From the NCBI GenBank assembly GCA_000620545.1, contig JIBA01000003.1, positions 62,001 to 126,000 of the forward strand: a DNA stretch of 64,000 bases. The letters are read 5' to 3'. Below are positions 25,401 through 28,076 of the stretch, one piece after another; positions within the stretch are counted from its first letter, which is position 1; each line of letters begins with the position of its first letter. The notes beneath the pieces were generated by a model. The model worked only from the letters and a program-made list of their open reading frames with translations. It ran no database searches and was not told the origin of the DNA. The stretch comes from Intrasporangiaceae bacterium URHB0013. Lineage in GTDB: Bacteria > Actinomycetota > Actinomycetes > Actinomycetales > Dermatophilaceae. The position numbers and the translations under genes were made by a program.

Positions 25401-26582
25401 TCAGTAGCTCATCCCCATCACCGCCCGCACGGTGGCCAACGTCCGCTCGGCCACCGCGTTGGCCCGCGCGTTGCCGTCGTGGAGCACCGAGGTCACGTAT
25501 GCCGGGTCCCGGGCGAGGTCTGCACGCCGCGCCCGGTGGCCCCCGAGGGACTCGTTGACCGCCTCGGTGACGACGCCCTTCAGGGCCTGTGCGCCGCCGT
25601 TGCCGATGCGCTCGGCCACCGCCTCCGGCTCCTCGCCGAGGAACAGCCCAGCGATGGTCAGCAGGTTTGCGACGGCCGGACGACGGCTGGGGTCGAACGT
25701 GATCCGGCGTTCCGAGTCCGTCCGGGCGACACGGATCCGGGCCGCCGTCTCGTCGGCCGTGTCGCTCAGGTTGATGACGTTGCCCTTGCTCTTCGCCATC
25801 TTCGTCCCGTCTGTGCCGAGCAGCAGAGGGACCTCGCTGAGCAGGGCGTCCGGCTCGGCGAAGACGCTGTGCCCGGCGGCATACCTCTGGTTGAAACGGC
25901 GCGCGATGGCGCGCGTCTGCTCCAGATGCGGCAGCTGGTCGCGGCCGACCGGCACGATCCGGCTGTGGCAGAAGAGGATGTCGGCCGCCTGGTGCACGGG
26001 ATAGGTGAGCAGCAGGCCCGAGAGCGGACGACCGCCGGAGAGGGTGAGCTCGTCCTTGACCGTCGGGTTGCGACGCAGCTCAGCGTCGGTCACGAGGGAC
26101 AGGAAGGGCAGCACCAGCTGGTTGAGCGCCGGGACCGCACTGTGCGTGAAGATCGTCGTTCGGGCGGGGTCGAGGCCGGCCGCGAGGTAGTCGAGGACGA
26201 GACTCCGGACGTTGGCGCCCATCTCGCCCACCGAGTCGCGGTCGGTGATGACCTGGTAGTCGGCGATGACGACAAAGGTCTCGACTCCCTTCTGCTGCAG
26301 GCGGACTCGGTTGCGGAGGCTCGAGAGGTAGTGGCCGATGTGGAGCGGGCCCGTCGGTCGGTCGCCGGTGAGCATCCGGAAGCGGGCGGGATCCTCGCCG
26401 GCACGTGCGTCGATGAGCGCGTCCAGGATGGCGCTGCGGTCACGGGCTGCGGCATACGTCGCGCTGTCGTCGGGATCGAGGGCGCCGAACGTGTCGGGGC
26501 TGTCGACCGCTTCGCTGGTGCCGACCGTGTCGACCGGGTCGATGGTTGCGGCTGCGGTGGGGCTGGTCGTGCTGGTGGACAT
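25401..26582 (-). CDS. trpS: Tryptophanyl-tRNA synthetase
   Basis: This 393-residue class I aminoacyl-tRNA synthetase charges tRNA(Trp). The HIGH motif appears as GPLHIGHY (~80-87) and the KMSKS loop as KMAKSKGN, in the region that binds ATP. An Ala/Thr/Asp-rich extension of about 50 residues precedes the catalytic core and is longer than in typical enzymes. The ATG at 26582 is preceded by GAGGAGAG; the frame is open to 26639 but that part belongs to the leader RNA. Upstream lie a short peptide with adjacent Trp codons and a hairpin over the ribosome binding site, so expression is probably set by Trp-tRNA charging. Confidence 0.95.
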   Translation of the reverse strand: MSTSTTSPTAAATIDPVDTVGTSEAVDSPDTFGALDPDDSATYAAARDRSAILDALIDARAGEDPARFRMLTGDRPTGPLHIGHYLSSLRNRVRLQQKGVETFVVIADYQVITDRDSVGEMGANVRSLVLDYLAAGLDPARTTIFTHSAVPALNQLVLPFLSLVTDAELRRNPTVKDELTLSGGRPLSGLLLTYPVHQAADILFCHSRIVPVGRDQLPHLEQTRAIARRFNQRYAAGHSVFAEPDALLSEVPLLLGTDGTKMAKSKGNVINLSDTADETAARIRVARTDSERRITFDPSRRPAVANLLTIAGLFLGEEPEAVAERIGNGGAQALKGVVTEAVNESLGGHRARRADLARDPAYVTSVLHDGNARANAVAERTLATVRAVMGMSY

Positions 26583-26619
26583 GGTCTCTCCTCGTGGTCG
26601 AGAGCCCACGGGAGAGACC
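26583..26619 (-). promoter_or_regulatory. Hairpin sequestering the trpS ribosome binding site
   Basis: Read on the transcript, GGTCTCTCC pairs perfectly with GGAGAGACC just before the ATG. An inner CGTGG/CCACG stem adds five pairs beyond a one-base bulge, giving about 14 bp in all. The 3' arm contains the Shine-Dalgarno GGAGAG, so the folded form should block translation of trpS. The 5' arm includes CCCGTGGG, which can instead pair with CCCACGGG of the upstream hairpin. Confidence 0.8.
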
Positions 26620-26644
26620 TGGCCGCACGTGCTGGACATGCGCA

Positions 26645-26664
26645 GAGCCGCCCGTGGGCGGCTC
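26645..26664 (-). promoter_or_regulatory. First leader hairpin of trpS
   Basis: GAGCCGCC and GGCGGCTC form an 8-bp stem with loop CACG. The 5' arm can alternatively pair with GGCGGC just after the leader-peptide stop (26688-26693). The loop region CCCACGGG complements the 5' arm of the sequestering hairpin. No T-tract follows, so it looks like a switching helix and not a transcription terminator. Confidence 0.7.
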
Positions 26665-26693
26665 CGGATCTCGGGTTGGTTCGATGGGCCGCC

Positions 26694-26747
26694 TCAGCTG
26701 GGCAGCCACCACGCTCCGTTCAGGACGGGTCGGTTCATCGAGCTCAT
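26694..26747 (-). CDS. trpS leader peptide with tandem Trp codons
   Basis: This is a 17-residue open frame, MSSMNRPVLNGAWWLPS, upstream of trpS. Two adjacent TGG codons lie at 26706-26711, close to the end of a peptide that otherwise lacks Trp. This is the classical design of an attenuation leader: a ribosome waiting for charged tRNA(Trp) would stall there. The A of the ATG lies seven bases after a -10 hexamer, so the transcript is probably leaderless. No Shine-Dalgarno sequence is needed or seen. Streptomyces trpE and an auxiliary Streptomyces trpS are known to use Trp-codon leaders, which supports the reading. Confidence 0.82.
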   Translation of the reverse strand: MSSMNRPVLNGAWWLPS

Positions 26748-26754
26748 GGCAGTG

Positions 26755-26783
26755 AGGGTACTCACGCCGGGAGGAGCTGTCGA
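26755..26783 (-). promoter_or_regulatory. Promoter of the trpS leader
   Basis: On the minus strand, -35 TCGACA (26778-26783) and -10 TACCCT (26755-26760) are separated by exactly 17 bp. The predicted start point is the A of the leader-peptide ATG, seven bases downstream. Both hexamers fit the housekeeping-sigma consensus well for a high-G+C organism. Confidence 0.75.
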
Positions 26784-26809
26784 TCGAACGGATCACGCCC
26801 TGCCGCTCC

Positions 26810-26815
26810 TAGGCT
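26810..26815 (+). promoter_or_regulatory. -10 element for the Fic-like gene
   Basis: TAGGCT (TANNNT) ends six bases before the GTG at 26822. With no Shine-Dalgarno between them, a leaderless transcript is likely. It diverges from the trpS promoter, only ~30 bp away. Confidence 0.45.
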
Positions 26816-26821
26816 GGGTCG

Positions 26822-27748
26822 GTGCCCGACGCCCAGCCCGCTCAACCATCCCAGCCCGCCCAGCACGCCCAACCAGCCACGAGAGTCGGGGCGGCCCAGG
26901 CGGTCCTGCTCGACCGGCTCGCTGCGCTGACCGACCTGCCCGACGTGCGTGACCGCGCAGACGCCGCGCGCGAGGCGTGCACGCGGCTGCGCTTCCACGA
27001 GGCCCTGCGCCGGCGCATCCCCGAGGCGTCGGCCGAGTCACGCGTCCGCGGTGCCCAGGCCAGCGCGGCCCTCGACGGTGCAGAGTTCCCCGTCGACGTC
27101 GTGAGGGAGCTCATGAGCGGCGCCCGCAGCTGGCCCGACGACCTCGACCCGGGTCTGCGCACCCTCAAGGGGGCCGTCGCGGCCACGGCCGAGAGCGAGC
27201 GCGTCGTCGCGCTGGTGCGCACCGCGCCGCTCCAGGCGCTGGCCCGCCTCCATGTCGCGGCCGCCTCGCCCGTCGTCAGCGGCGGCGAGCTCGGCCGTCC
27301 CCGCGTCGCCGACGAGGGATGCACCGAGCTCGTCGACCTGGGACCGGCCCCGGCGCCGACCGTCGTCGCTGCGCGCCTGGCATCGCTGTCCGAGGTGATC
27401 GTCGCGGCGGCAGCCAGCAACCGGGTCCCCGCCGCCGTCGTGGCCGGGCTCGTGCACGCCGAGATCGCAGCGATCCGCCCCTTCGTGCACGGCAACGGTC
27501 TCGTCGCCCGGGCCATGGAGCGGGCCCTCGTCCAGGCCCTCGGGCTGGACCCGACGGGTGTAGCCGTCCCGGAGGCCGGCCACGTCGCGAACGGCGGCCC
27601 CGCCTACCTCGGTGCGCTCACGGCATACGCCCAGGGTGGGACGGCCGGAGTCGGGCTCTGGCTCTCGCAGGCGGGCGAGGCCGTGGCCCGAGGGGCCGTG
27701 GAAGGGGAGCGGATCAGCGACGCGGTGCGAGCGGGACGCCTCTCCTGA
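26822..27748 (+). CDS. Fic-like protein lacking the catalytic histidine
   Basis: This is a 308-residue protein. A Gln/Pro/Ala leader is followed by a helical N-terminus with RGAQASAALDGAEF, the position of the Fic N-terminal signature. The Fic core appears as HAEIAAIRPFVHGNGLVAR (~218-236). The usual HPFxxGNGRxxR reads RPFVHGNGLVAR: the catalytic His and the GNGR arginine are replaced. AMP transfer is therefore unlikely in the normal way, though the nucleotide-binding GNG is kept. Actinobacterial homologues near the ssd locus are often labelled 'oxidoreductase'. The GTG start is supported by a -10 element six bases upstream. The small-RNA region follows. Confidence 0.78.
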   Translation: MPDAQPAQPSQPAQHAQPATRVGAAQAVLLDRLAALTDLPDVRDRADAAREACTRLRFHEALRRRIPEASAESRVRGAQASAALDGAEFPVDVVRELMSGARSWPDDLDPGLRTLKGAVAATAESERVVALVRTAPLQALARLHVAAASPVVSGGELGRPRVADEGCTELVDLGPAPAPTVVAARLASLSEVIVAAAASNRVPAAVVAGLVHAEIAAIRPFVHGNGLVARAMERALVQALGLDPTGVAVPEAGHVANGGPAYLGALTAYAQGGTAGVGLWLSQAGEAVARGAVEGERISDAVRAGRLS

Positions 27749-27798
27749 GCCGGTTCGGTCGTCCGAACGTGGCGATTCGTGCGGGATGTCCACGGGGG

Positions 27799-27827
27799 TG
27801 GACAGTTTCTTGGCGCAGCGACAAGGT
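27799..27827 (+). promoter_or_regulatory. Promoter candidate for the Ms1-like RNA
   Basis: -35 TGGACA (27799-27804) and -10-like CAAGGT (27822-27827) are separated by 17 bp. The -35 is strong and the -10 keeps the A at position 2 and T at position 6. It lies 50-79 bp after the Fic-like stop. Confidence 0.5.
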
Positions 27828-27833
27828 GGGGGG

Positions 27834-28076
27834 TGTCGCCACGCCGAAGGCCTGGAGTACAACAGGAGTCAGGAACCACATCGCCGGGAGGCGTAGATCC
27901 GGATCCACGTACGGCAGATGTCTCGAGAAGAGGCCGAGTACCCACGCGAGAGCAGTTCCCTTGGAACAGTCCACCCCCGGACGCACAACCGGGGCGACAT
28001 TACGAGAAATGCACGCCTGGTAGCCCGGAACTTCTCTGGAGGCCCCCCGACCGATGGTCGGGGGGCCTCCACCTTG
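27834..28076 (+). ncRNA. Structured small RNA, probably Ms1-like
   Basis: There is no coding frame here, but the ~240 bases are bounded by a promoter candidate and a very strong terminator. They contain internal hairpins such as GTTCC-CTT-GGAAC and CCCCGG...CCGGGG. In mycobacteria the RNA-polymerase-core-binding Ms1 RNA and the 6C RNA lie near the ssd gene, and Streptomyces has matching RNAs (scr3559, scr3558). The order here, Fic-like gene, this RNA, 6C-like RNA, then ssd, is consistent with that. Identity with Ms1 rests on position, size and structure, not on sequence match. Its alternative is an unusually long 3' region of the Fic-like gene. Confidence 0.58.
28038..28070 (+). terminator. 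Very strong terminator of the Ms1-like RNA
   Basis: GGAGGCCCCCCGACC and GGTCGGGGGGCCTCC form a perfect 15-bp stem with a three-base GAT loop. The following bases are accttg, so the stem and not a T-run must do the work. It can also fold on the opposite strand. Confidence 0.85.

Follow-up and report, generated by a model that had tools for sequence, protein, structure and literature searches.

The trpS gene analysed here lies on the minus strand of a 64,000-nucleotide stretch of the genome of Intrasporangiaceae bacterium URHB0013 (hereafter the window). It encodes a tryptophanyl-tRNA synthetase (TrpRS) of an auxiliary type, and its leader is probably a ribosome-sensed Trp attenuator that is read out at the initiation of translation, perhaps together with termination at the first of two hairpins. 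A preliminary description, made from the sequence of the window alone, had proposed a mechanism of this kind. Comparison with related leaders largely supports it and suggests that a shortage of charged Trp tRNA turns on synthesis of the enzyme through this RNA.

The gene (25401–26582, minus strand) encodes a protein of 393 residues. The genome contains two TrpRS genes, and the TrpRS encoded elsewhere is 37% identical to that of the window. The stretches taken as active-site motifs read GDRPTG and ADYQVIT in the product of 25401–26582, compared with GMQPTS and VADLHALT in that of L180:300–1349.

The promoter of the leader, TCGACA-17-TACCCT, is located at 26783–26755 on the minus strand, where TCGACA (26783–26778) is separated by a 17-nt spacer from TACCCT (26760–26755). 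The distance from the end of the −10 box to the leader ATG at 26747 is 7 nt, corresponding to a leaderless start. The leader ORF (26747–26694, minus strand), which ends with the stop codon TGA at 26696–26694, encodes the 17-residue peptide MSSMNRPVLNGAWWLPS, and peptides with adjacent Trp residues (WW) are also encoded in relatives. The tandem Trp codons TGG TGG (26711–26706, minus strand) would serve as the sensor and, together with the following bases, form the protector arm R1. As in known attenuators, a short ORF with tandem regulatory codons, predicted to be translated, is thus placed 5′ of a gene for the same amino acid.

Downstream on the same minus strand, segment A, GGCGGC (26693–26688), starts 18 nt after the first Trp codon. 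Hairpin 1, GAGCCGCC/GGCGGCTC, occupies 26664–26645 and has 10 base pairs when the flanking pairs are included (26666–26643). Its 5′ arm, GAGCCGCC (26664–26657), is segment B, and its apex, CCCACGGG (26658–26651), together with the 3′ arm is segment C (26658–26645). Hairpin 2, GGTCTCTCCCGTGG / CCACG-A-GGAGAGACC (26619–26583), is the putative sequestor of the trpS Shine-Dalgarno (SD) sequence AGGAG (26592–26588), which is located 5 nt before the ATG; the hairpin covers AGGAG, and its last base adjoins the trpS ATG at 26582. Segment D, CCCGTGGG (26612–26605), can pair either with C as an anti-sequestor or with E in this sequestor (D:E). The promoter, the leaderless WW peptide, the two hairpins and the covering of the SD had all been described previously and were confirmed with exact coordinates.

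In the proposed mechanism, transcription would start at or next to the leader ATG. When Trp-tRNA is sufficient, the ribosome at the stop codon would cover A, so that hairpin 1 (B:C) forms and C is locked; with C locked, D would pair with E, and the trpS SD would be hidden (OFF). If the leader is left untranslated, the protector R1:A would hide A, again giving the OFF state. When Trp-tRNA is short, the ribosome would stall on the Trp codons and leave A free to capture B; C would then be released and take D, the SD would stay open (ON), and TrpS synthesis would rise. The footprint of a ribosome extends approximately 15 nt from the P site; therefore, a ribosome at either Trp codon of the window would leave A free, and one at the stop codon would cover it.

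Folding of the leader over 193 nt gives a free energy of −89.4 kcal/mol (z = −3.64), and none of 200 shuffled sequences was as stable. A structure on the plus strand was rejected as a real feature, the fold of the opposite strand having z = −1.21. The earlier claim that stalling frees the trpS start is not supported by equilibrium folding: with a stalled ribosome in place, the best structure is still OFF at −65.6 kcal/mol, compared with −49.5 kcal/mol for the enforced ON structure. Because equilibrium favours OFF by 16 kcal/mol even with A free, ON would have to be held kinetically until initiation has taken place. In the growing transcript, A:B is the best structure at 40–48 nt, and hairpin 1 wins from 56 nt, its 3′ arm having by then emerged.

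Other readings of the region were also considered. A T-box or another known Rfam leader was rejected, as the Rfam search of 25500–28000 gave only a chance match to gyrA (E = 4.5). The in-frame ATG at 26639 was rejected as the trpS start by inspection of an alignment of 31 leaders (A1), because the lengths from hairpin 1 to the start differ by non-multiples of three among close relatives. Directly 3′ of hairpin 1 (window approximately 26644–26635, minus strand), a GCATGT-like motif is kept in many leaders, with the consensus TTnGCATGT in A1; it has no role in the model.

The leaders of relatives were collected in two sets. For the larger set, 229 loci were examined, of which 90 were parsed, 84 were unique and 77 were used, after L040, L077, L079, L021, L072, L075 and L113 had been dropped by eye. 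The tests on the smaller set left out L033, L041, L040, L077, L079 and L168 (wrong leader or hairpin by eye), the duplicates L110 and L123, and L060, which has no usable start; L021, also without a usable start, was left out of these tests except in the analysis of single re-pairings.

A scan of 26300–27000 gave no match to the sigma-70 consensus promoter, so the support for the promoter comes from its conservation across leaders. With a parser blind to promoters and gaps of 5–8 nt searched, TANNNT was found 6–7 nt upstream of the in-frame start in 56 of 57 leaders, compared with 15 of 5210 control ATG/GTG sites. In the larger set, the −10 box was present in 77/77 leaders (gap of 6 nt in 40 and 7 nt in 37), a figure that leans upward because the parser scored starts preceded by a −10 box more favourably. 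The distance from the first Trp codon to A is 14–21 nt (median 18) in 56/57 leaders, and that from the Trp codon to the stop varies from 12 to 30 nt. The exception in both 57-leader counts is L103, where the parser took the wrong Trp codon. In the family genomes L120, L148 and L151, which have a single TrpRS of the window type and no Trp leader, a −10 box lies 7 nt before the likely trpS start, and trpS itself looks leaderless.

The leader is also linked to a second TrpRS. The window-type enzyme occurs in 74 of 186 family genomes, of which 72 were checked for the other type, the remaining two holding gene fragments only; G107, in which a small contig carries a 60% fragment, was counted as lacking it. 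The other type was present in 36 genomes and absent from 36. A Trp-codon leader precedes the window-type gene in 36/36 genomes with the second TrpRS, compared with 10/36 genomes without it. Of the 36 leaders, 33 have adjacent Trp codons and that of L108 has Trp-Gly-Trp; those of L094 and L149, which were unparsed and count only in this figure, have one Trp codon each. In the other 26 genomes without a second TrpRS, no adjacent Trp codons were found, and no −10 box was followed by an ORF with one Trp codon. The Fisher test on 35/36 versus 10/36, calculated before the L149 leader was counted, gave p = 3.9e-10, which is a guide only because the genomes are related. Among the leader-bearing genomes outside the family, six were checked, and two TrpRS genes were present in five of them. 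In the family of the Nocardioides genome L011, the gene type occurs in 12 of 149 genomes, and L011 is the only one of these 12 with a WW leader. The −10 box at a fixed distance from Trp-codon leaders, the steady Trp-to-A spacing and the link with the second TrpRS make it very improbable that the Trp codons are accidental and that the role of the hairpins is confined to mRNA stability or basal expression.

The alternative helices were evaluated by comparing the pairing of the two strands of each leader with that of strands swapped between genera, using 20000 permutations of genus units; the units were assigned by hand, and those outside the family were taken from record titles or likeness. The values for C:D are those recomputed without overlap between the D region and the 3′ arm of hairpin 1. 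By duplex energy, C:D gave z = 6.9 for 17 family genera, 4.8 for 17 outside units and 8.9 for the 34 units together, with 0/20000 permutations in each case. By gapless score, the corresponding values were 5.8, 3.8 (2/20000) and 7.0, and with the loop and 3′ arm taken as C they were 4.7, 2.0 (506/20000) and 4.8. The controls pairing the 5′ arm with D (z = −0.8 family, 0.0 outside, 0.6 all) and C with the trpS coding region (0.3, −0.9 and −0.6) were negative. The same-sense control gave 0.9 in the family, 2.5 outside (131/20000) and 2.4 overall, which is not flat outside the family.

Single re-pairings of C:D are CCCGGTCGGG/CCCGGCCGGG in L005, GCCCTTGGGC/GCCTGAGGGC in L104 and GCCTTCGGGC/GCTCGAGGGC in L103. 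In A1, 91.1% of the C:D cells are paired, compared with 33–63% when the strands are slid. Seven C:D cells changed on both sides, a number reached by 24/500 shuffles; counted as pairs, one C:D pair changed on both sides, which is not above shuffles (492/500). C:D was no better than with strangers in the leaders of Nocardia, Brevibacterium and Arthrobacter and in the units g25 and g4. Hairpin 1 aside, no helix is better supported than C:D; for hairpin 1, 98.4% of the cells in A1 are paired and 12 changed on both sides.

For A:B, R1:A and D:E, the values are those of energy-based tests in which A was placed by its distance from the Trp codon; fixed-length gapless tests of these helices gave z = 0.0–1.8. 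A:B gave z = 5.6 over the 34 units (0/20000), 4.2 in the family and 3.6 outside, with z = 0.1 for a control segment against B; within A1 it is uninformative, being almost invariant in the 31 leaders. R1:A gave z = 4.0 over the 34 units (0/20000), 3.1 outside and 1.4 in the family alone. The values for D:E are modest (z = 2.3 over all units, 2.8 in the family and 0.1 outside), and in the shortest leaders the D region of this test overlapped the 3′ arm of hairpin 1; in A1, 61.6% of the D:E cells are paired and 26 changed on both sides (0/500 shuffles). R1:A and A:B are mutually exclusive pairings that take in the regulatory codons, as in an attenuator, and C:D is a conserved alternative helix that would exclude the sequestor, as in a translational one. 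The two alternative pairings of the preliminary description, A:B and C:D, proved exact, with matched changes in relatives, and the WW peptide and the compensating pairs, on whose conservation it had staked its case beforehand, are conserved.

A further pairing, seen by eye, is possible between the first bases of the leader ORF and the spacer between A and hairpin 1 (UCGAUG:CAUCGA in the window, GTCTCGTC:GACGAGAC in L100 and L103). The two elements vary in step (z = 3.8 over all units, 3/20000; z = 2.7 in the family, 97/20000), and the pairing is perhaps an extended protector hairpin.

The hiding of the SD was evaluated as the predicted cost of opening it, calculated with a D region that, where leaders are shortest, overlaps the 3′ arm of hairpin 1. 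In the window, with hairpin 1 formed, the cost is 13.3 kcal/mol; it is 7.3 kcal/mol when D is blocked and 5.7 ± 2.6 kcal/mol when the upstream part is shuffled. The trpS value is the highest of 12 SD-bearing genes of the window, which were picked by a rough rule. The 34 family leaders average 6.8 kcal/mol, whereas the mean is 3.6 kcal/mol for shuffles and 3.9 kcal/mol when D is blocked; 29/34 lie above their shuffles, and 25/34 drop by more than 0.5 kcal/mol when D is blocked. In the larger set, analysed without one over-long leader, 32/44 family leaders lie above shuffles. Over the 34 units, the mean is 5.9 kcal/mol, compared with 3.1 with D blocked and 3.6 in shuffles, and 27/34 units lie above shuffles. 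The default hairpin is thus predicted to hide the SD, as expected of a translational attenuator. SD hiding is lacking in the units L036, L058, L059, L065, g17, g25 and g48, several Propionibacteriales among them, which indicates that the translational part is not universal. Compared with the main tests, three results are less clear-cut: SD hiding in the larger family set, the alignment count, and the same-sense control for units outside the family. In another family of the order, L153, L155, L158 and L161 have WW leaders with 0–3 T after hairpin 1 and a costly SD hairpin; by eye, the anti-SD arm of these leaders has a potential partner in the 5′ arm of hairpin 1, possibly a different wiring.

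The readout could instead be purely transcriptional as in Streptomyces, with hairpin 1 as the terminator and hairpin 2 incidental or only lowering basal translation. The leaders of Streptomyces trpS are described as attenuators, A:B covaries as an antiterminator would, and 77/77 leaders form a strong, GC-rich hairpin 1, although the parser required one. The 8 nt after hairpin 1 contain 2–5 T in 70/77 leaders (range among relatives 0–6) and at least 3 T in 60/77. The latter is the level called U-rich for 3′ ends in the accessible text of a study of S. clavuligerus (PMC8269248), where ends after hairpins without U were mapped as well, and hairpin 1 may therefore still terminate with a poor U-run. 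However, hairpin 1 of the window is followed by only 2 T in the next 8 nt, and the scan of 26300–27000 found no terminator with a T-tract, in agreement with the earlier statement that a T-tract is absent; the U-tract of a trp-type attenuator is thus missing. Moreover, C:D covaries even though D lies approximately 30–40 nt past hairpin 1 in the window, and SD hiding exceeds that of shuffles and falls to their level when D is blocked. Purely transcriptional control is thus unlikely. Given the position of D, 3′ of hairpin 1 and next to the SD, C:D cannot affect termination at hairpin 1, and the readout is likely to be at translation. The translational readout proposed at the outset is thus likely from the covariation of C:D, while termination at hairpin 1 may act as well.

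A combination of the two levels is a special form of this translational attenuator, and its probability is included there: hairpin 1 would terminate a part of the transcripts, and the D:E/C:D switch would set the translation of the rest, both governed by the same stalled ribosome. The chance of this combination is put at a little less than even. In its favour, the Streptomyces subgroup StrB (7 leaders) has more T after hairpin 1 (mean 5.1 in 10 nt), together with a D whose complement lies in the loop and 3′ arm of hairpin 1, where pairing gives 22.3 kcal/mol, against 11.6 kcal/mol for strangers (rank 0 of 33), and an SD opening cost of 8.2, compared with 4.3 in shuffles. On the other side, the T count after hairpin 1 and SD hiding are uncorrelated over the units (rho = 0.13, p = 0.45); for the same reason, the idea that a T-rich hairpin 1 and SD hiding are mutual alternatives was rejected. 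In the leader of Streptomyces L191, which has a single Trp codon, there is no T run after hairpin 1 and D is kept (by eye). The complementarity of D in StrB and its retention in L191 indicate that a translational layer may exist in Streptomyces.

A Trp-codon leader at trpS is already known in Streptomyces, and the present one is not new in kind. A classical attenuator was predicted at S. avermitilis trpS2 (Seliverstov et al. 2005, PMC1262725), in S. lividans the leaderless peptide trpL2 precedes trpS, with two hairpins but without a U-rich stretch, an arrangement that was read as termination (PMC8079986), and Vecchione and Sello 2010, by its title (cited in PMC4787780), concerns an auxiliary antibiotic-resistant TrpRS gene under ribosome-mediated transcriptional attenuation. 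The window thus shares with these systems the Trp-codon leader peptide before trpS and, by the 2010 title, the auxiliary enzyme; with trpL2 it also shares the leaderless start, the two hairpins and the absence of a U-rich stretch. It differs in that the Streptomyces attenuators were published as transcriptional, and the accessible text of these sources mentions no sequestor or anti-sequestor of the trpS SD. The earlier claim of novelty therefore holds only in part. The literature search found no description of a Trp leader that acts on translation at trpS, which is weak evidence of absence because most subscription papers were outside its reach.

The classical enteric trp attenuator combines Trp codons with a series of protector, anti- and terminator-like hairpins. 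Trp codons and the same series occur in the window, where A, B and C belong to it; to call the leader unlike classical attenuation, as had been done, was too strong. What does set it apart are the segments D and E at the SD and the lack of a U-tract terminator. In mycobacteria, short poly-Cys ORFs (Canestrari et al. 2020, via PMC9031893) are likewise leaderless and codon-rich, and they are reported to regulate the translation of downstream genes through elongation speed; they sense Cys and belong to another operon, and the comparison covers the ORFs and their mode of regulation. In actinobacterial ileS T-boxes, hairpins acting as SD sequestor and anti-sequestor were predicted (PMC1262725, accessible text), so that an aminoacyl-tRNA synthetase gene with a predicted readout by SD sequestration is common to both. 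The sensor there is a T-box instead of a stalled ribosome, and the window has no T-box match. A T-box senses uncharged tRNA.

It is conceivable, and we regard it as somewhat short of an even chance, that the leaders of auxiliary TrpRS genes in many Actinobacteria, Streptomyces included, carry a second, translational switch, in which C, freed once a Trp-starved ribosome blocks hairpin 1, would act as a decoy for the anti-SD arm D. One stall would then both let RNA polymerase pass and open the start of the synthetase gene. The auxiliary antibiotic-resistant gene of Streptomyces is reportedly trpRS1 of Streptomyces coelicolor; if such a second switch exists, the transcriptional account of trpRS1 would be incomplete. 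The present results call for re-examining the auxiliary TrpRS of Streptomyces, published as transcriptional. They offer a specific example, open to experiment, in which a Trp-codon attenuator would act at the SD of a gene for an aminoacyl-tRNA synthetase and the switching helices are marked by matched changes across many genera, and would extend translational attenuation by leaderless ORFs past the mycobacterial Cys case. They also suggest how hairpins with poor U-runs in GC-rich Actinobacteria can still regulate.
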